A stretch of 64,000 nucleotides of DNA, taken from contig CM065650.1 in the NCBI GenBank assembly GCA_033220425.1, positions 806,001 through 870,000 of the forward strand, given 5' to 3'. This DNA is from Lepraria neglecta. Its lineage: Eukaryota; Ascomycota; Lecanoromycetes; Lecanorales; Stereocaulaceae. Positions 826-56,247 of this stretch are shown here, one piece after another. The position numbers and the translations under genes are program-made. Positions within the stretch are counted from its first letter, which is position 1. Every line of letters starts with the position of its first letter. Below the pieces are notes generated by a model. It saw nothing but the letters and a program-made list of their open reading frames with translations, did not search any database and had not been told where the DNA came from.

Positions 826-2662
826 ATGCTTTACGTTCTGAATACCATAATCTACACTATTGAAAACAGGGAGCTTTGGGCTTGTGTTGTAGTCGAGCTA
901 AGTGGAATGGAACGCCGCTCATTTGAATCCTACAACCCTTTGCAGATACGCGCATGGTCTGTTGACCACAACGGATCAAGCCTTGGAAGGTTCTATGATC
1001 TCACGGTGCCACAATTCAGCGGCCAAAAGGCAATCAAAACTTTGCAGTACGTCCCAGCGGGGTACCTCCCTGATGAAAGCAAACAGCGTAGGAAATTGAC
1101 TGCTCGCGGAAAACTATGGTGGAAATATAACTTCGGCGTACATAATACTGTTACAGAAAAAGACAAAATACAGGCAAGTCAGATTTTCCACGTATACATG
1201 AATCAAGATCTGAGTGATTGTGTTGTATGCTATTTGCCATTTTCCTTTGCCATTTTCCTTTATCACCATTTCTTTGTCAACATTCTAGCGTCTTCTACTG
1301 TTTGACACTCCATCATGTATATTAGGAGCCTCATTCCATAGATTCTGGCTCCTCAGGCTGTTCACATTCATAGATCTCATTGATACATTGCAACGCTTAC
1401 ACCAAAGCGACAGATTGTTTACGTCTCCGAGTCATAGAAAATGGCACGTCAAAGACATTAAGATCTACACATTATCTGGTAAGATTAAGAGCGGAGACTC
1501 AGAGGCACAAGCCAAGACTAGAGAACATGACCATAGGAATACCAAGGCTATCGTAACATTATTATACTGTTATAGGCAATATTCGATCAACAAAGCCGAG
1601 ACCCAGCTGCTATTCAGCAGGCACAATTTGAAGACGAAGCCGTAAAAGGCATAGTATCACAATTGGTGTACGCGGGCCTGGAATAAATCCAATCGACCTT
1701 GAAGCCACTAAATCTCATAGTTTGTCCCTCCAATGTTGGACGTCTTCATGTTGCGTGACCTAAGATGGGGTATAATGCAAAAATTCATCATATTGGTCAT
1801 TATGATATTCTAATGAGTCGCATCGTCAATCAAAATCTCGGATGCCACCCGGTATAGATACTCGACCAGTGCTTTCGACAAATTGGTAATCCCAAAGGGT
1901 CATCTAAAAATCCTGAAAGCTAGATGTGATACTCAAAGGAACGGGGCCGTATTAACATCAAGCCGAACGTCCGGTCAACATAGCCTTCTGAGCAAAAGCA
2001 ATGGATCTATCTTTCTGTTATACGGCCCGTCTGGTAGTGGCAAGACACTCAGAGCGGGTGAGAGAATATACTTGGCCGGGTAATACGTAGCTAAAACTCG
2101 ACAGAATACGTTGCATAGCACACAAGACGCCCTTTGTTGGCCATTTCTGCTGGTGACATGCCCACGGAATCCCACGAGAGCTGGAAAAGGCTTTTTCGAA
2201 TTACTCCAAACTAGGGAAATCCTGGAGTGCAATTATGCTTCTGCAAGACGCTGATGTATATTTGCAAAGCAAAAATAAGGCAGACTTGGTTGGGAATGGA
2301 TTGGGAGCCGGTGAGTACCATGTGGGATTCTTCCCCAGTCCAAGCGAGACTCAAGGTATATAGCATTTATTCGCCTTATGGAAGATTTTGATGGGTAAGT
2401 TCCAACGTTTTGACAGATTTCAGCATGAAGCCGGTAACTAATTCTTCAGAATCATGTTTATTGAGACCAATCGAGGTAAGTGTCGACCATGACCACCAAT
2501 GAAAAGGTGCGATTGACTCTTGCTCTAGTGGGTTATTTTGATGATGCGATTATTGTCCGTATTCACGCTCGACTTGATTGCAAAGATCGCGACGAAGAAG
2601 GGCGGCATCGACTATGGGATGCCCTTTTTGAGTCCCTAGAGAAAAGATTTAGTGGTTTTTAG
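826..2662 (+). pseudogene. AAA+ ATPase relic with DUF7025-like N-terminal region
   Basis: Bases 900-1130 encode LQIRAWSVDHNGSSLGRFYD and LTVPQFSGQKAI, followed by a Pro/Tyr segment and TARGKLWWKY. This resembles the DUF7025-type region found before the ATPase domain of many ascomycete AAA proteins. A P-loop, GPSGSGKT, lies at 2024-2047 after SIFLLY. Next comes WSAIMLLQDADVYLQSK (about 2220-2265), which corresponds to the Walker B strand, where family members usually have LLLDEAD. Then RLMEDFDG and IMFIETNR follow, separated by a possible intron with donor gtaagt, and then a segment ending IIVRIHARL near 2570. The pieces lie in different frames with intervening stops, and the usual D-E pair is altered to Q-D. 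I read this as a decayed gene. Unusual splicing could rescue part of it but would not restore the changed motif. Confidence 0.48.
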
Positions 2663-2792
2663 CAACGCAATCCAGTTTACCGTGAAGCTCCCATTCTTCC
2701 AAAGTGTAAATTGAATTCTCGGCAGATAAAAGACGGTAAGATGACCTGCTTGAGCAGTCAATATTCTTACCTCGAGAACGATAGTAATTTTA

Positions 2793-4150
2793 ATGGCTAA
2801 TACTGTCTGCATGTTAGCTTTTAGGACAGCAGTCAATCTCGCAAACTACGACAATGCAGATCGAGGCTACTACCAAAAAAGCACCTTGGAAGCGAAGCTT
2901 TTTGAGACTGTTGCGAAGATATTCAAAGAGTTTGCAGAGGATATGCGCCGCACGCATTCGAGTGAAGAGGGTCTGGCCTCGGAGAATATGTGGATGCGAA
3001 ACCGGAAAGACTTTTTACTTGAGAAATCAGGGGAGGGTGAACAAATTAACATCACGAGCACCTAGAGAAGGACAGACCGGGCACAAAAACCCAGGACGCA
3101 ACAGGGAGTGAACCTAGAGGCTAAGACATCCACATAACGGTTCAAGCAGCCCCCCGTCTGCCCAATTTTGTGACATCGATACAAGTACAGTTTGGGATTA
3201 TAAGTAATTCTCCCCACTTGCAGCTATCTTCATGGTGCTGTGACTCTTGTAGATGCTGGTAATCGTTGGAGGCACGGTGTGCGCGTTGAACGTTGCTTTG
3301 TGACCTCGCACGGTATGACTGTTCGAAGAGCTTCGCTTATGTCAGTATCAGGAGCAGAGGAGTCGCAAGGTATACTTTTGACTGACCGGAGAGCTGGAGG
3401 CATGTTGATTCTAAATCTAGTGGAGCACGGAATGTCTAATAAAAGTGGGAATTAGTGGTATTTCAATGTCAAGACCAAACACAATGAAGCTGGAAAGGCA
3501 TCGATCTTGGCATCATCAGAGCAAGGAAGTCAAAGATCTTCATTTGAATTAGCGATGACTTGCCCAATCCTTGTTCTGATATTTTAAGTGATTTGCGGAT
3601 GTTCAACGCGTGTTAGCAACCAGTCACTGAATTTCAAAGTGTCTAGAATTTTCAGATAGCCAAGGACGTTTGTTAATGAGCGTTCGAAAATAGAAATGAC
3701 TGCCTTGAGACGATTAGAAATTAAATTGTCAGGAGTCTAAGCCTATAAGCAGAATATTACACTTAGCATCAATGTTCTATGTATCAGCGACCACTACGAG
3801 AAGTATTTCAGCTCGTGTATGATAAACAAAGAGATGGACTTGAGCTCTTTGTAAGTCAATTTTACCGGGGGTTGGAAGCTTCGCTGGTCAAATCTCTAGG
3901 CGATTTTGCTGAAGACCTGAGACAGGAAAATCCCATTTTTAATGAGAAAGAGCTGAAAGCATAGACTTGGAAGGCGAACATGGATTTCGAATATGCCAGT
4001 ACTGCGGTGCCATCCGCTTTGTTGTTTCACATGTGAATTTGGCTGGCCACTGGACCATGCACTTTGCCGATCCGTGGAAGAGGATAAACAGTGAGCTCTT
4101 TTTGCACGTTTATTGTTGATTAACGAGACACACACTCCATGGTCAATAAC
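2793..4150 (+). other. coding-like debris, including a C2H2-like fragment
   Basis: Two short open stretches look coding but are unrecognised: 2793-3065 (acidic, with LFETVAKIFKEFAEDMRR) and 3779-3964 (LELFVSQFYRGLEASLVKSL). Just beyond the second, in another frame, bases 3994-4075 encode CQYCGAIRFVVSHVNLAGHW and then TMHFADPW. This is a C-x2-C ... H-x-x-x-H arrangement like the C2H2 fingers common in fungal STAND-associated proteins. The rest (3066-3778) has only short, unconvincing frames. I see this as part of the same decayed block as the two fragments to its left. Confidence 0.28.
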
Positions 4151-4218
4151 CTTATTATGAAGGCTAGATAGCAATAGCTATCATACAAGAAACAGATCGG
4201 GGTATTCCATCGCAGACA

Positions 4219-5932
4219 TTACAGCACAAATCTAAAACCCCGTCGACTTGCCTCCCCAGGAATCGCATCCCCAACAGTAATAGCACCCTCCACAGGCTCG
4301 CCTCGATCGAGCTTCTTGTTGAGTCTGACAAGAATGAAGCGAAGTAATGTAGCCATGCATATTGCCATGAAGGCCATTATGCAGTTTACCGCCATTGCGA
4401 CAACTAGTCTTTTTCAGCATAATTCTATACCGATGGCAGCGAGAAATTGGGGAGGGCTTACTGTAGCGTGGTCCTGCACCCTCGGGATACATGTATGAAG
4501 CGTAGATAGAGGAGCAATTCGAGACAGCGTTGATGGCTGCAAGGGCGGCAGCACGCTATATCAGAATGTTAGCCAAGCTCTTGAAACAGTACAAGCAGAT
4601 GTTCTACCTTCGCAGGCGGTCTTGGTAGCGTATTTGATATCCAGCCCAAAGCCACTACGTATCCAGTGTAGACTCCAGCCGGCATCAGCATTATAGCAAA
4701 GTATCTGGGACCAACCGAGGTTGTCGTCGCAGCGATGATGTAGGCAATGACAGCAAAGTAGAGAGGTATAGTGATGTGGAAGTAGCGCTCGCCTGTCCGA
4801 TCGGCGTGCCAGGCGTTGCAGAAGGAGGTGATGACGGCTAGGACATATGGAGGGACTGTGAGGAGTAGGGAGATGACGTCTGAGTAGCCGAGGGTCGCAA
4901 CAACAGTGGGAAAGAGGTTCGTGACTGTTCCTGAAGCAACGAAGCCGAAGAGGAGGACCATCTATAACCTGTTAGCACTAGATATGGGCAGAGGGTCATG
5001 GATCGTACAAGGATCCACATCTTAATATCCTGAAAAGCGAGCTTCATCCCATGGAAGAAAGTCTGCTGCTTCGAATCCACCCAATCATCTTCCCCGATAT
5101 CTTCATCCAAACGCCAAATCGCCAATTGCCGTTCATTCTCCGTAAGCCAGCTCGTCGTTCTGGGGAAGTTTGGCAGTGCAAAGTATGCCAAAAAGGCAAT
5201 AAAAATCGTAATGACACCCTCAATAATAAATAGCCAGCGCCAAGCACGAAGTCCTTTCGCTCCGTCCAATCCATTCGTAATACCAGCGGATATCAAGCCA
5301 GAGAACGCCCCAGATAGCAGCGACCCAGAGTATAGCAAAGCAGTCCTGAAACCCAGCTCTGATCGTGTGTACCAGGAAGAAAGGAAGAACAAGCATCCGG
5401 GGAAGTATGCAGCTTCGACGAAACCGAGGAAGAACCTGATAGCGATCAAGCCACCATAGCTTTGCGCTCCAGCTGTAGCGGCGGAGATGATACCCCACAC
5501 GATCATTACGGTTGGCAGGTATAGAGCTGGCTTGCCGATTTTGTTGAGGAATAGATTCGAGGGTATCTGCATGAGGAGATATCCGACGAAGAGAATACTG
5601 AGGGCCGTCAAATACTGTGTGCTCGTGAGGTCCAATCCTCCTTTCGACAGAGGGTCCTGAAGGCCAGCTAGGCGCGCTGCTGCGATGTTATTCCTGTCCA
5701 AGTAGTTCATAATGTACATGAGAATGATCATAGGTAGGAGTCTGAAGTCGATTTTGCGGACCAATGCCTTCTCCAAACGTTGGCGCTCCTCGGGCGACAG
5801 GTCTCTGACGAGCTCTGGTGGTTGCCTTTTTGTTCTAGTGGTGGAAGCACGTTCGAGCGAAGCATCTGAGACATGCTCTGCAACCTTGTTATTGTCGTCA
5901 TCGCTGTAGCTTCTGATCTCTGGTGAAGCCAT
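4219..5932 (-). CDS. MFS transporter, anion:cation symporter family (Dal5/Tna1-like)
   Basis: Four exons are inferred: 5932-5009, 4961-4608, 4555-4462 and 4403-4219. All introns are GT-AG (47, 52 and 58 bases), giving 518 residues. A hydrophilic N-terminus of about 60 residues precedes DFRLLPMIILMYIMNYLDRN, the typical first transmembrane segment of fungal allantoate/nicotinate-type permeases. Hydrophobic helices follow, including IRFFLGFVEAAYFPGCLFFL and the loop YTRSELGFRTALLYSG. The second half begins after a hydrophilic loop (WRLDEDIGEDDW) and ends with MYPEGAGPRY, a family hallmark, then the last helix and a short tail. Length and layout suit a 12-helix plasma-membrane transporter of small organic anions. 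The substrate cannot be told from sequence. The upstream region is shared head to head with the macro-domain gene. Confidence 0.9.
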
Positions 5933-25292: not shown

Positions 25293-26127
25293 TGGAAGTA
25301 TCCCGCCTGGTAGCTACTCTTGTAGCATGTCTTGCTCGATCTTTCGCTGCTCCAACTCCGAGCCTTCTTGTCGGCTCTTCTCCTCCTCTTAGCGTAAGAG
25401 GATCCCGGCTGCTTTGTGACCCACCAATGATTCAAGCTTGGCTTCTTTCAATTTTGCCCAGGAAGATAATGAGGCTGATACCAAGCTTGATAACAAACTT
25501 CAAGCTAGCTATGCCTCAGTCCATGCAACCACGACCATACCGATTCGTCTTGTCCTTGCCATTGTGTCGGCGCGATGGGTAGAGTACCCAGGGAGTGTGG
25601 ATTGGCGACGCTTGGATGCAGCAATGCCCATTTGCTTGCAATTCGATGACCCAAGGCTCTAGTCATTTCCCGGTTCTGTTCTCCGAAGTCTCTTCAGCAA
25701 TGCTTTGGGCTTCTTCCTACACAAGACTTTGACAAATCGCATCACGCATTATCTCCTCATAATATGGGGAATACCTGCGCTCTTGGCATTGAGCCTTTGG
25801 GGGACTCGGGGGCAAGCCGGGGGACCATCGTCGAAGCTTCTCCGAGAGGCTATTGTCTTGTGTGCCGCCTTAGAGATTTTAAGGAAGCTCTTCGGTTTTG
25901 GCGCCGGTCCAATCTCCGTCACCCTTTATCCAGTAGGTGTAGACTGTTCACTCTTCTTGCTTGGAATGTTCAGATTCATGGCGTATAGCAGCATGGATCG
26001 CTGCTGACCTACACTCATGATGCTATCCGCACCAGCAGCAACGGCAGGCATTCGTCTCCGGGCACACTTCGGGAGCTGGCATGGAAGATTAGAGCGACAT
26101 CCTTCGTCACCTTTGGCGTTGACTCTT

Positions 26128-26250
26128 CTGGTGCTGAGTCCTTTAGTGCTGACCCCATTGGTGCTGAAGCCGTTGGTGCTGAAGCCGTTGGTGTTGGACC
26201 CGTTAGTGCTGGACCCGTTGGTGTTGGACCCATTGGTGTTGATTCTCCGC
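26128..26250. repeat. 15-base minisatellite, about eight units
   Basis: Units of the form gtgctgaagccgttg / gtgttggacccgttg follow one another with point differences. Two to three more units recur at about 26288-26330. On the minus strand one frame reads as repeats of T-N-G-S/F, on the plus strand as LVLxP. I regard both as by-products of the repeat. Confidence 0.75.
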
Positions 26251-26337
26251 TTGATGATCATGACTCTCGGCCGCCAAATTGGACGATTAGTGCTAAACCC
26301 GCTAGTGCTGAAACCATTGGTGTTGATGCCCCGGATG

Positions 26338-27023
26338 ATGATGAAGAGTTAACTTGCCTACCGCATTGGGTGTCATGGAAAGGTGTCGGATTTAAACCTT
26401 CTTCATCCGAGTATGGAGAGGCAGCGCTGGATCCTGAAGTCATACTGGGAGATCTGAGGGGAGAGGTGAGGCTCGATGGTAGCTTTGGCATAGGCCTGCC
26501 GTCCATACGGTGTCTAGCGACGTCAACGAGCTCAACTCGACTATCTCTGAAGCTCTGTTGTGTAGGTGTCCTGAGCGGATCCCCGTTCCCACCGAGATAC
26601 ATTCTGTTGAAGCGCTGAGAGAACGAGAGCGGCGAATTATCCTCAGGATAGTCGTCGTCATCAAGAAAAATGGCCATTGCTGCTACTGCAAGACGAGATT
26701 ATGGTGCTAACGATGTGGTCGCAAATCGGGTAGCTTTCGAGGCTTGAGACACCTTGAGGAGTGCCATCTGACATATCATCGTCCTCGGAATCCTTATCCT
26801 CTTCTTCAATGCTGTCCAGCTTACCAACTCCAGCAACTTGGCTAGTCGCAGCTTGAGTGTCCGAGTCTGGCCCCCCACTCAGGTGCCATTCCGCCTGTTG
26901 CGAGTTCTGATCAGAATCTATTGTGGCTCGGACGAAGCTTGACACTGGAGAATCCGGGCGACTCAGATATCTCGGACGGTCATCCCCAATCCGCTTCTCA
27001 TTCGGCCTCTTCAGCGATATCAC
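26338..27023 (-). pseudogene. Ser/Asp-rich coding-like segment with a good intron, no start found
   Basis: An acidic, Ser-rich frame (27023 down to about 26750, ending EEEDKDSEDDDMSDGTPQ) can be spliced over a short intron beginning gtgtct and ending cttgcag. It continues in frame into VAAMAIFLDDDDYPEDNSPL and then SFSQRFNRMYLGGNGDP, reaching about 26338. The 3' part runs into the minisatellite. There is no ATG at the 5' end and stops lie just upstream. I do not recognise the protein; it is probably a partial relic. Confidence 0.33.
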
Positions 27024-52252: not shown

Positions 52253-52254
52253 TA

Positions 52255-52341
52255 CAGTCGATTGCAAAACCATTGGCGGGAACGCTAAGGCACTTTCGGG
52301 GTACCCCACCACACACCAAATTTTGGTGGCAGAAGGGGTAT
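52255..52341 (+). repeat. left terminal inverted repeat
   Basis: 87 bases beginning cagtcgattgcaaaaccatt. It matches the reverse complement of 56159-56245 at 85 of 87 positions. It contains smaller palindromic parts (ggggtacccc and ccaaattttgg), which may be transposase-binding sites. Confidence 0.92.
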
Positions 52342-52467
52342 CTAGGGAGGACTGTACTGTAGACCGTAGATGCAATTGAACATTTCTCAAAAAGGCAATA
52401 GTGAGGCCCTGTAGACGTCATTCCTTGGTGTTTTGCTTGCCCACAACCACCTCCCTCGCTGTCCACT

Positions 52468-53552
52468 ATGGTCCTACCTATAGACCCATACACCAGGGCT
52501 GCTATTCAGCGAGAGCTTGAGCTCGGTTTCGATAACGACACCATTCTGCTTGGTGGATATGATGTTAGCCTGCGGACACTACAGCGTATGAGGAGAAGCT
52601 GGAGGATATATGGAGAGGTGTATATACCCAGTGAGAACCGCGGTGGGAGGCCAAGGGCTCTGCACCAAGTGTACGAGGAAGAGCTTTTGGCGTATTTGGA
52701 GCAACGTCCTATGGCTTATCTGGATGAGATGGCGTTCTTCCTCCTGGATGAATTTGATGTCCAGGTTGATGAGGCTACAATCTGGAGAGCTCTTACACGC
52801 ATTGGTTGGTCTCGAAAGAAGTGCCGCAAGGTTGCTAAGGAACGCAACCAAGAGCTCCGAGACTACTGGTTCACCAAGCTCTCTGATTGGCGAGCTGACC
52901 AGCTTATATTTCTGGACGAGAGCGCTGCTTGTGAGCGTACAGGTGAGATCTCTTCTGATTGGCTGGTGCTTGCTAACAGTACTCAGGGGATCGAAAATTT
53001 GGATGGGGACCTCTAGGAAGAACACCGGCAGTTATACAGAACCTCAAGAGGAATAAGAGATGGAGTCTATTACCTGCCTTTACAATCGACGGTTATATCG
53101 ATTGGATAATATACCAGGGGCCCATTACCGCCGCGATGTTCAACGAATTCGTCCGAGATCGAATCCTCCCTCATTGCACTCCATACGAAAGCGGCGGTCC
53201 TATGTCTGTACTTATAATGGATAATTGCAAGATACACTGGAACTCTGAGTTGACAGAGATGTGCCAGGAAGCAGGCGTTCGGCTCGAATATCTCCCTCCA
53301 TATTCGCCAGATTTGAACCCTATTGAGACATCTTTCGCTGTGTTGAAGGCTTGGATGAAGAGACATCAGGACATTGGAGAGCTCTTTGCAACAGATAATA
53401 CATATGGAGAATTTCTAAACTTAGCGGTAGAGGCTCAAGATCCATGGCCCGATGCAGGCAATCTCTTCCGCTTAGCAGGGATCGAATATGAGGGCATCAA
53501 TAATGCAGTCAGACAAGTAGAGGAGTCAGACGAGGAAGAAGGAGACATATAA
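52468..53552 (+). CDS. Tc1/mariner transposase (DD34E)
   Basis: The plain reading frame stops at 53016. Removing a 44-base intron (52943-52986, gtgaga ... actcag, with a gctaaca branch-like site) joins SAACERTG to DRKFGWGPLGRTPAVIQNL and gives 346 residues. This border rebuilds the ERTGDRKxGW motif usual in these transposases. The N-terminal 100 residues are a paired-type helix-turn-helix (TLQRMRRSWRIYGEVY, NRGGRPRALHQVYEEELLAY). The catalytic triad is D in LIFLDESA, D in LIMDNCKIHW and E in LPPYSPDLNPIE, with 34 residues between the second D and E. All three are present and no in-frame stop remains, so the enzyme may be functional. It acts in the nucleus by cut-and-paste at TA. Confidence 0.92.
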
Positions 53553-53601
53553 TTGTGTATATAATAAGAGGGAAAGCTTGCAATCTAGGTTATATATAGA
53601 T

Positions 53602-55614
53602 TTAGGTCTTTGCTTGAGTCTCCAGCTGAGTCTCTGCAAAACAGTCTGAATCACTAAGATTCGCTCCACCGTATAGATCGTATATATCCGGGTCATCATC
53701 CTGGGTCTCATCTTCATAAGCTTTCGTCTCAACAGACGGAATTATATGTCCCTGCTTATAGGACGTCTGCTGAGGCCTGCTTGCTAAACGCTGCCGCGAT
53801 GGCGATAATGGGAGAGTTCTTCCTAGACCTCCAACATGAAGAGTCGTTTGAACCTGCCTCTCACGGCCCCATTTACTGACGTTTCTAGCCAATTGGCGGC
53901 CAATCCCAGGCTTAATACCAAGCTTACGCCACTGCTCCTCATGCTCGTCATTCTTCCAGGCTTGTATGATATCTGTAGTATAGCCCTGATCCATAAGCTC
54001 GTCCTTAGCCTCCTCATATGCTTTTATGTATTCAGGGTGCTTTTTGCTTAACCATCCAACGAACTCGGCTAGTTCGCCTTCGACAGGGCTGCTATTTCGA
54101 TAGGACGAGAGGCCTGGTGTTGCTGTGACTGAGCGAGAGATCGAGTGAGGGGGTCGAGTAGTTGTCTCAGTTGGATCCACGTCTCTAGAGCGAAGCTCTT
54201 TTATCAGATCTGACGTTCTCGTGTCTCTCAGCGACTGGGGCCCTGATATCAGTGGCTGAAAGCCAGGCTGGAAGCTATATCCGTAGGGATACAAAGGCGG
54301 TGGCTGTCCAAACTGCCCTCCTATAGTAGGATAAGCAGGTGTAGTTGTAGGCTGTGTTGGTGTCTCAGTGGTATGTCGTCTCTTTTCTTTACGAGCCTCC
54401 TTCTTCTGCGTCTGCTGTAGTTCAACAAGTAAAGACGCAGGAGGCTCGTCGTCACTTATTCGACCTGTAGTATCTCTTAGGATAGCAACTGCCCACATCT
54501 TCGACTGCCTTGGAAGGAAGGGTATATGCTCGCCCTTATGCAAATAGCAATAGTGGCCCGTATTGCTGCATATAGAACTTTTGCAAGCCCATCGATTGTG
54601 TATTTCCTGTTGTTTTTGCCTCCAAGGCTCCCCTGCATTCGTCTCATCCATCTCCCCAAGAAGCCTATTAGTTGGGATATGTGTAGAGCCTCTTGCTGTT
54701 CCTGAAACAATCGTCCCAGGCTTCTTCTCAGCTGCTTTGCCAACTACGGGGATCTCCCCCGTGCTGTTACGGGCCCAATGGTATATAAGGTCCACCTGTA
54801 GGCCCTTCTTTCCGTCCTTCTGCCACTCCCGAAGCTCGTCTTCAACACTATACCAGTCCTGCTGCGTCTCGGCGGTGGTAGAACGTCGATTCGGCCCTGT
54901 AAGCTTCTCATAAAATGGTGTTGCTTGGACTGAGACACGAAAGCAGGCGTGGCCTCTCTCTATAGCCCATTTAGCGGCGAATTCCTTCTGCTGATTATGC
55001 ATAGTTCTAATAAGAATGTCGTTACTGCCATCGACAGTATAGTCCCGGAAGGTCTGGCTGCGAATAATCGAACTTTGGATGTCTTTCTCCCAGAATGACC
55101 TGACAGCAAGCTTATATTTAAAAGCAACACGTCCTGGCGATTCGAGCTCGTCCTCACTATCCAGGTGTATCGAATTTGCCTTCCCCTTCTTCTGATTTGT
55201 AGTAGAACCGTGGGATTGCTGACCAGCCGTAGACTGCGAGTTATCGACATCCTTTGGAGTCTCCTCACTCTCACCGAAAACGTCCTCCCTACGAGATATC
55301 TCCTTCCTAGCCTGCGTCCACCTCTTATTCGATTCACCTTCGACGCCTACGAACAGGCTTTCAGACGAATGGCGTCTTATTTGGGGCTGCTGGGTATCGA
55401 AATACGTCTGAGTGTTGGATAACTGAGTCTCGGGCCCAGCTCCATCAGAATCGTCATCCTCATCGAGCAGATCATGTCGAAATGAGGTTATAGACGTTCG
55501 AGACGGTGTATCTGGCACCAAATCAATTGCCTTCTGAGCTCTTGCCCTGAGGAATAGCGCTGAGGACGACTGCTGGCTTGAAAAGAGGCTAGACGAGACA
55601 GGTGGCGGTGGCAT
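53602..55614 (-). CDS. transposon-borne accessory protein, Cys cluster plus SAM-like C-terminus
   Basis: Single open frame of 670 residues from ATG 55614, convergent with the transposase and ending 50 bases from it. Residues 1-160 are Ser/Asp-rich and disordered. About 160-300 look folded (FKYKLAVRSFWEKDIQSSII, FAAKWAIERGHACFRVSVQA, LQVDLIYHWARN). About 335-400 hold a cysteine cluster, RWACKSSICSNTGHYCYLHK, then SKMWAVAILRDTTGRISDDE, a possible zinc site. A Pro/Gln/Tyr-rich part follows. At about 530-600, LAEFVGWLSKKHPEYIKAYE, then DIIQAWKNDEHEEQWRKLGI and KPGIGRQLARNVSKW resemble a small SAM-like helical domain. Cys-cluster then SAM-like layouts occur in uncharacterised fungal proteins that I recall but cannot check. 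The role is unknown; helping transposition or being passenger cargo are both possible. Confidence 0.8.
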   Translation of the reverse strand: MPPPPVSSSLFSSQQSSSALFLRARAQKAIDLVPDTPSRTSITSFRHDLLDEDDDSDGAGPETQLSNTQTYFDTQQPQIRRHSSESLFVGVEGESNKRWTQARKEISRREDVFGESEETPKDVDNSQSTAGQQSHGSTTNQKKGKANSIHLDSEDELESPGRVAFKYKLAVRSFWEKDIQSSIIRSQTFRDYTVDGSNDILIRTMHNQQKEFAAKWAIERGHACFRVSVQATPFYEKLTGPNRRSTTAETQQDWYSVEDELREWQKDGKKGLQVDLIYHWARNSTGEIPVVGKAAEKKPGTIVSGTARGSTHIPTNRLLGEMDETNAGEPWRQKQQEIHNRWACKSSICSNTGHYCYLHKGEHIPFLPRQSKMWAVAILRDTTGRISDDEPPASLLVELQQTQKKEARKEKRRHTTETPTQPTTTPAYPTIGGQFGQPPPLYPYGYSFQPGFQPLISGPQSLRDTRTSDLIKELRSRDVDPTETTTRPPHSISRSVTATPGLSSYRNSSPVEGELAEFVGWLSKKHPEYIKAYEEAKDELMDQGYTTDIIQAWKNDEHEEQWRKLGIKPGIGRQLARNVSKWGRERQVQTTLHVGGLGRTLPLSPSRQRLASRPQQTSYKQGHIIPSVETKAYEDETQDDDPDIYDLYGGANLSDSDCFAETQLETQAKT

Positions 55615-55652
55615 ACTTGAGTGGAATGTACGGGGAGCATGCAAAGATCCGT

Positions 55653-56018
55653 CTATACTACAGGGGGGCTTTGCTCGGGCTCTGGGGAGGGCTGCTTTGC
55701 TGGTTGAGAAGCCTTTTTAGAGGCCTTCTTAGCAGCTGGCTTCAAAGCTCGTTGAGGAGCTGCCTTGCCATCCTTTTTGGGCGGCGGTGGACGCTTCTCA
55801 GCCTGCTCAGGCGCCTGGGGTGGCTTCAGCACCAGCCGTCCAGATGGGGGGGCTGGCGGGTTGAGGGTCAGACGTCCAGGTGTCTGAGGGGCAGCAGCAG
55901 CAGCAGCAGGGGCAGGAGGCTTCAGGGTCAGACGGCGAGGTGTCTGGGCGACAGCAGGCTCTCTATCGACGGCAGCATACCTGTCAAACGTACTGGAACG
56001 ACGCTTTCTGGGGCCCAT
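55653..56018 (-). CDS. small basic Pro/Ala/Lys-rich protein in the transposon
   Basis: 121 residues from ATG 56018, ending 38 bases before the ATG of the large accessory gene and in a different frame. Three repeats, TPRRLTLKPPAP, TPGRLTLNPPAP and SGRLVLKPPQAP, are followed by a histone H1-like tail (ALKPAAKKASKKASQPAK). A GCA/GCT run gives six or more Ala. No intron that joins it to the next frame could be found, so it is either a separate gene, an upstream frame on the same transcript, or the former N-terminus of the larger protein. DNA binding by charge is plausible. Confidence 0.55.
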   Translation of the reverse strand: MGPRKRRSSTFDRYAAVDREPAVAQTPRRLTLKPPAPAAAAAAPQTPGRLTLNPPAPPSGRLVLKPPQAPEQAEKRPPPPKKDGKAAPQRALKPAAKKASKKASQPAKQPSPEPEQSPPVV

Positions 56019-56158
56019 AGCGACAGCGACAATGAGGTCTACAGTCTACGAGCGCGGGGGGAGACAAAACACCATATATGGGGCACTGGCGGCTTCATCT
56101 TTGCCGTTTTAGGAAGACTACATGAGCACTACTGCAGAGACAACGCAGCACTTTCTAT

Positions 56159-56245
56159 ATACCCGTTCTGCCACCAGAATTTGGTGTGTGGTGGGGTACC
56201 CCGAAAGTGCCTTAGCGTTCCCGCCAATGGTTTTGCAATCGACTG
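56159..56245 (-). repeat. right terminal inverted repeat
   Basis: Inverted partner of 52255-52341, ending tgcaatcgactg next to the TA at 56246-56247. The two mismatches with the left end lie in its inner 20 bases. Confidence 0.92.
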
Positions 56246-56247
56246 TA

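Follow-up and report, generated by a model that had tools for sequence, protein, structure and literature searches.

A Tc1/mariner transposon of Lepraria neglecta with a convergent accessory gene and a second family that shares its layout

Tc1/mariner elements serve as the textbook case of a transposon for which the transposase alone suffices. Tc1/mariner or other DDE transposons with an extra open reading frame (ORF) are nonetheless a known general kind, and the available portions of the literature describe (i) a Tc1/Mariner element of Pyrenophora tritici-repentis with a sequestered ORF (Manning et al. 2013, PMC3538342), which has 46 members, 31 of them near-identical and with both coding regions, is interpreted as a case of transduplication, and has a similar pair reported on an Alternaria bacterial artificial chromosome; (ii) the TBEs of Oxytricha, which have three ORFs and whose accessory genes are under purifying selection, with one of them evolving rapidly and with families that share the transposase and differ in the accessory gene (PMC4724952); and (iii) PIF/Harbinger-type (PHIS) transposons, whose second ORF encodes Myb/SANT or YqaJ where known, or is motif-less, as in Pangu (PMC4482050). 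The element considered here lies in a 64,000-nucleotide stretch of the Lepraria neglecta genome (NCBI GenBank assembly GCA_033220425.1, contig CM065650.1, positions 806,001 to 870,000 of the forward strand; hereafter the window). It is a Tc1/mariner transposon of 3991 bp at window positions 52255-56245 that encodes a DD34E transposase on the plus strand and, convergent with it, accessory coding sequence on the minus strand.

Judged from sequence comparison, the accessory gene is a standing part of the element rather than cargo, and the element represents a stable two-gene class. This conclusion follows from the presence of the gene in all ten complete copies of the family (family 1) and from a homologous accessory protein, encoded in the same layout, in a second family (family 2) of the same genome.

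Retention of the accessory gene in two families

Copy searches cover one genome (42.0 Mb in 11 contigs, window included). The terminal inverted repeat (TIR) of the element has at least 42 matches genome-wide, 20 of which, by their coordinates, form ten complete elements of 3972-4004 bp (L037-L046). Two others lie in a small derivative around L038, two in an old copy that spans 16 kb (C7:4691164-4707224), and 18 are unpartnered. The complete copies align to the window element except at most for the outermost two bases per end. Each of the ten is bordered by TA at either end, lies between flanks of its own, and has both the transposase and the minus-strand gene between the same ends. Four copies, including that of the window, share one identical sequence, another two show a one-base difference in length, and the rest are 97.8, 94.7, 88.5, and 85.0% identical; among the six youngest there are zero substitutions.

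The sequence-only reading of this locus had held that transposase copies lacking the minus-strand gene, or accessory genes confined to ordinary chromosomal loci, would point to a one-off capture. Within this genome none of the ten full-length family-1 elements (0/10) has the transposase without the gene, and only fragments lack it. Full-length open accessory frames number 17 (six in family 1, 11 in family 2), all inside complete elements; none occurs away from a transposase, the other matches being short or interrupted by stops, with several judged by coordinates only. Of the empty TA sites that it proposed to look for, one exists in paralogous form: L038 is inserted in the small same-family derivative, and once its flanks are joined they read as a nearly ordinary, unbroken TIR containing one TA, a paralogous empty site.

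Family 2 was recovered by a protein search of the genome as 11 loci of equal score, whose transposase is 54% identical to that of family 1. Each locus has an adjoining open accessory frame of 647-656 codons, and the 11 accessory and 11 transposase copies, each set at 100% protein identity, are paired in 11 of 11 cases; the TIRs likewise form 11 pairs, spaced by about 4.05 kb. At L062, the one locus where the structure was read, the 88-bp TIRs are perfect and TA borders the element at either end (the arm coordinates, 384-473 and 4343-4432, are given with the TA), and the accessory gene on the plus strand and the transposase on the minus strand are convergent as in family 1. As their near-identical copies indicate, both families have recently multiplied side by side in the genome. 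Among older family-2 relatives (transposase 55-85% identical, at least 115 matched residues), seven of nine have an accessory match within 4 kb; five shorter fragments are unpaired. At identities of 42% or less, none of nine transposase matches has an accessory match within 4 kb, a distance scan that a very divergent accessory gene would escape; these nine probably represent ordinary Tc1 families.

Several lines of sequence evidence indicate that the two families have homologous accessory proteins. They are 23% identical in alignment, and the best-conserved part, a domain at residues about 499-590 of the family-1 protein (window 53842-54117, minus strand) that is predicted to form five helices, gives a BLASTP match of 33% identity over 89 aa (E 4e-8). 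The genome searches are reciprocal, each family's protein recovering that of the other, and both proteins begin with a basic Pro/Ala/Lys-rich part. A Cys/His motif, C-x4-C-x6-C-x6-H in family 1 (C343, C348, C355, and H362; window 54526-54585, minus strand), is zinc-like by pattern only; in the form C-x4-C-x6/7-C-x6-H it is colinear between the families, with an E of 0.08 when scored alone. It is retained in the older copies L046, L047, and L051 (L051b) and altered in the heavily damaged L045.

The TIRs of the two families share the motif CACACACCAAA, whose distance from the end is 56 bases in family 1 and 57 in family 2. When the family-2 TIR was shuffled 20,000 times, an 11-mer match within two positions never arose. 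Over their whole length, the family-2 TIR matched none of the family-1 ends tested. The motif may be a candidate site bound by the transposase or the accessory protein.

A one-off capture, in which the ends came to enclose a host gene that was then passively amplified by transduplication, has a published precedent in the available account of the Pyrenophora element (PMC3538342) and would fit with part of the accessory gene being weakly constrained. It is discarded as the leading explanation in view of the second family, where a homologous accessory gene occupies the same convergent place beside a transposase of only 54% identity, and the genome matches include no full-length open accessory frame outside complete elements. 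Capture is thus very unlikely. Of the two outcomes entertained by the sequence-only reading, the single capture is disfavoured, and the stable element is borne out by ten of ten family-1 and 11 of 11 family-2 copies.

Several further remnants accompany these families. Just inside its right end, the L038 derivative (L038:915-5071 minus the element at 1001-4991) matches the outermost part of the family-2 TIR, with TA coming next; read by eye, this resembles a since largely deleted family-2 insertion in a family-1 derivative. L057, L058, L059, and L060 (C1:3342233, C5:184598, C6:545972, and C6:1489637) belong to a repeat of 1.5-2.2 kb or more with a family-1-like transposase, in which a shared internal deletion removes all three catalytic residues. 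In L061 (1883-2139), a cluster of nested inverted repeats around a unit AGCTCGGCG..TTACAAAA adjoins a truncated family-1 end. A 1.26-kb family-2 TIR pair at C6:1025831-1027090 encloses a transposase fragment with no accessory match and is, by coordinates, a short derivative.

Anatomy of the element and the reading of its frames

The window copy begins with CAGTCG, ends with CGACTG, and is flanked by TA at 52253-52254 and 56246-56247. Self-comparison of its arms pairs the TIRs over 87 bases with two mismatches or 91 bases with three (left TIR, 52255-52345, plus strand; right TIR, 56155-56245, minus strand). When the element is compared with the window by BLAST, its two arms give an alignment with an E of about 1e-37, far above chance, and no second full-length copy appears within the window. 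The inner motif lies at 52310-52320 on the plus strand of the left TIR; its right counterpart at 56180-56190 on the minus strand follows by symmetry.

The transposase is encoded on the plus strand by two exons (52468-52942 and 52987-53552), which, spliced over a 44-nt intron (52943-52986; GTGAGA...CTAAC...CAG), give a protein of 346 aa. The family-2 gene is uninterrupted at the same place. Exon 1 carries the helix-turn-helix part and the first catalytic residue, D150, and exon 2 carries D237 and E272, which are separated by 34 residues (DD34E). Exon 1 matches Pfam HTH_33 above cut-off and HTH_32 just under it, and exon 2 matches DDE_3 (E 8.3e-26). The NCBIfam IS630 model matches exon 1 at 5e-16 and exon 2 at 1.8e-19, both under its curated whole-protein cut-off.

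With a TA duplication, TIRs, and a DDE triad all present, the element is a member of the Tc1/mariner superfamily, of the DD34E type and IS630-like branch. It departs from the superfamily in one usual, though not defining, trait, namely the transposase as sole gene. The pogo/Fot1 group is defined in the available text by DDE_1 and a CENP-B-type N-terminus (PMC7325037, PMC3441728); above cut-off, the window transposase has only HTH_33 and DDE_3 and so falls outside that group. The family-2 transposase exon has a DDE_1 row at an E of 0.002, which is below cut-off and far weaker than its DDE_3 row.

On the minus strand, ORF B (53602-55611) encodes 669 aa plus a stop from its first ATG, or 680 aa from an upstream TTG, and ORF A (55653-56018) encodes the basic Pro/Ala/Lys-rich part of 121 aa. 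Together they occupy 2417 of 3991 bp (61% of the element). The ends, the repeats, the intact-looking transposase, and minus-strand frames exceeding half of the element had all been described correctly by the sequence-only reading. Its count of two non-transposase genes stands only as far as the frames and their sizes are concerned, as the two most likely constitute one 805-codon gene. L040 and L042 have a single open frame of 805 codons spanning both parts, and in the window copy the parts are split by a one-base length difference.

At this junction, the joined length class includes the partial copy L055 and the older L045, L046, L047, L048, L049, L050, and L053, and the split class includes L054 and the complete copies L037-L039, L041, L043, and L044; L053, L054, and L055 have extra frame-changing indels upstream. 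The open frame of L040 and L042, together with the joined register in older copies, suggests that the joined frame is probably ancestral. That ORF A and ORF B are instead two separate genes, the larger of which would begin with an ATG of its own at 55611, is improbable. The split arrangement does occur in six of ten complete copies, and the internal ATG is retained in five of the eight older copies viewed (L045-L049; lost in L050, L053, and L054). Against these stand the two natural full copies with one open frame, the joined register in L055, L045-L050, and L053 (with L054 as the exception), and the family-2 accessory protein, which is a single frame with a similar basic N-terminus.

The split itself may be due solely to a homopolymer assembly error, but a 7-C run in the same element has equal length in nine of ten complete copies, the tenth, L046, differing by a substitution; the partial copies L054 and L055 deviate at this run. 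An intron joining ORF A and ORF B was also considered and rejected; the one simple GT...AAG join considered, by eye, leaves the frames out of step, and an intron is unnecessary in the two natural copies with a continuous frame.

Elsewhere in the window, a 15-bp tandem repeat of 7.6 units (26129-26242) lies within an open frame at 25989-26618. Scans of the window for tRNA genes and Rfam families gave no matches.

Decay, constraint, and the possible role of the accessory protein

Older copies show decay resembling repeat-induced point mutation (RIP), by which identity falls to as low as 85%, in that their C-to-T changes fall on CpA. This decay and the introns are in keeping with a filamentous ascomycete host. 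In L043, 148 of 513 CpA sites are changed versus 3 of 623 CpT sites, and in L045 the counts are 280 of 509 versus 26 of 616; taking all four older complete copies, the altered fraction is 8-55% at CpA and 0.5-4% at CpT sites. The lack of substitutions among the six youngest copies implies that these spread after the last RIP or escaped it.

Ratios of nonsynonymous to synonymous substitution (dN/dS) were taken for ORF B against six older copies (seven aligned pieces) and for the transposase against two copies. For ORF B the range is 0.25-0.66 without masking and becomes 0.35-0.53 once RIP-type sites are masked; for the transposase it is 0.14-0.24. Under this masking ORF B is stop-free in five of seven pieces, the other two each containing a single stop, which implies that the frame was open, or nearly so, before RIP. 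These patterns indicate that the accessory gene was under purifying selection, weaker than that on the transposase. Chance frames were considered as an origin of the minus-strand ORFs and are rejected in view of frame retention across copies together with the masked ratios.

In two older copies, L045 and L046, divergence from the window copy is much greater in the transposase half than in the accessory half, with a masked synonymous divergence (dS) of 0.25-0.26 versus 0.05-0.06. The divergence steps near element position 1200, the diverged block covering about 200-1200 (Fisher P 2e-10 and 5e-10). Both are read here as mosaics, in which a transposase block appears to have been exchanged between lineages that share an accessory type.

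Database searches place the accessory protein in no described family. Pfam returns no family at E<=10 for either family's protein (805-aa form for family 1); in the Pfam/NCBIfam comparison the sole row is PLA1 at an E of 0.1, taken as chance, and a PDB sequence search returns nothing (best E 0.64). The C-terminal domain is modelled as five helices with modest confidence (mean predicted local distance difference test score, pLDDT, 66.5); a SAM domain is among its weak structural matches and is not separated from unrelated rows. The model of the accessory core is unusable (pLDDT 35.7).

The reading somewhat favoured here is that of a two-gene element whose accessory protein binds DNA, oligomerises, and helps the transposase, the cofactor role being suggested by its motifs and its retention. 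The transposase would bind and cut the TIRs. The accessory protein, with its basic tail, Cys/His motif, and helical C-terminal domain, would bind DNA and oligomerise, and would help the transposase to assemble on the long TIRs or to reach the DNA. Recombination towards the 3′ end of the transposase gene could bring one accessory type together with different transposases, and RIP would later destroy copies.

The main rival assigns the accessory protein an anti-silencing or regulatory role, in which it would shield or activate its own copies with no direct part in transposition. VANC proteins of the Arabidopsis VANDAL elements are an analogue. Such a factor would be consistent with the fast divergence between families, in which only the core is conserved, with the silencing pressure that the RIP history of the host implies, and, if it acts in trans, with the spread of split-frame copies. 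However, no known anti-silencing domain is found by Pfam at E<=10 in the 805-aa form, and older gene-bearing copies are RIP-mutated nonetheless. An anti-silencing function is a candidate role, possible but rather doubtful.

A number of observations weigh against the favoured cofactor reading and the stable two-gene class that underlies it. First, constraint on the accessory gene is moderate. Codon-position bias in ORF B is non-significant against L046 (P=0.15) and weak against L047 (P=0.026), compared with P=1e-8 for the transposase, and between families the protein is much less alike (23%) than the transposase (54%). Second, four of the six youngest copies have the split form, which implies that a full-length fused protein is not required in cis by every copy. 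Third, one gene is found without the other in fragments. Transposase fragments without the accessory gene occur at C2:92437 and C2:111636, and the relics L057-L060 have no TIR or accessory match in the 2.1-2.2 kb around each. Two of the nine older family-2 relatives, C1:3607994 and C8:1787351, both with stops, have no accessory match within 4 kb; going by coordinates and matched residues, these could be the leading parts of interrupted copies, the trailing parts of which (C1:3632785 and C8:1800880) are paired. Conversely, accessory-side fragments without a transposase include L047-L049, L051, L054, and L055, of which L047 has an almost full-length accessory frame with two stops. Other accessory matches with stops lie more than 4 kb from any transposase match (e.g., C10:171505, C2:5807162, and C2:2017333), three stop-free accessory pieces of 34-51 residues have no transposase match within 4 kb (C2:5934618, C2:27506, and C1:4052538), and two weak matches with stops have no transposase match near (C2:2512544 and C3:2104301). 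Finally, no relatives were found in the collections viral_contigs, genome_contigs, and phages, none of which is a fungal collection.

Relation to known systems

The sequence-only reading had called a stable element with accessory genes a little-described class; such elements are indeed little described, but the accounts of the Pyrenophora element (PMC3538342) and the TBEs (PMC4724952), as available in part, show that they are not undescribed. The Pyrenophora element is likewise a fungal Tc1/Mariner with an extra ORF between its TIRs. As described in the accessible text, its ORF is recognised by Osmo_CC (PF08946), unlike the accessory proteins here, which have no Pfam match; PF08946 has no match in this genome at E<=1, and the same search matched in 5 of 14 control genomes. 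The two elements, set apart by description only, may belong to the same class. If the present reading is true, earlier fungal cases of transduplication could be reread as standing element genes instead of gene capture.

The TBEs resemble the present elements in combining a Tc1/mariner transposase with accessory genes, one of which is reverse-oriented, and differ in their ciliate host, a comparison made from the available description and not by sequence. In certain fungal DNA transposons a TET/JBP dioxygenase gene is likewise an accessory gene inside the element; the protein is a different one, and the word "mariner" is absent from the paper's main text as available (PMC12730594). Ordinary fungal Tc1/mariner elements, such as DAHLIAE (about 1.9 kb, of the DDE_1 type; PMC3441728) and those of Cochliobolus (PMC4112212), share the TA target, TIRs of tens of bp, and a transposase; in contrast to the element here, their intact forms have a single ORF according to the portions available. 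In the open-licence literature, as far as its texts were available, no Tc1/mariner clade with this accessory protein was found, nor its presence in two families of one genome.

A broader proposal, advanced tentatively and as slightly short of probable, is that a distinct fungal Tc1/mariner clade constitutes an obligate two-component system, made up of a DD34E transposase and a dedicated orphan protein. The orphan protein would recognise the shared inner TIR motif and be required either for transposition or for evading silencing, and lineages would swap transposases and keep the accessory module. If true, the two families offer a pair of natural systems for probing the role of the second protein. 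A parallel would be the PHIS transposons, which also have two ORFs, a DDE transposase and a DNA-binding protein, DNA binding being only inferred for the protein here; they belong to another superfamily and use other target sites in the text available (PMC4482050). A clade that keeps a second protein through deep divergence would mean that part of Tc1/mariner has turned two-component, as PIF/Harbinger has.

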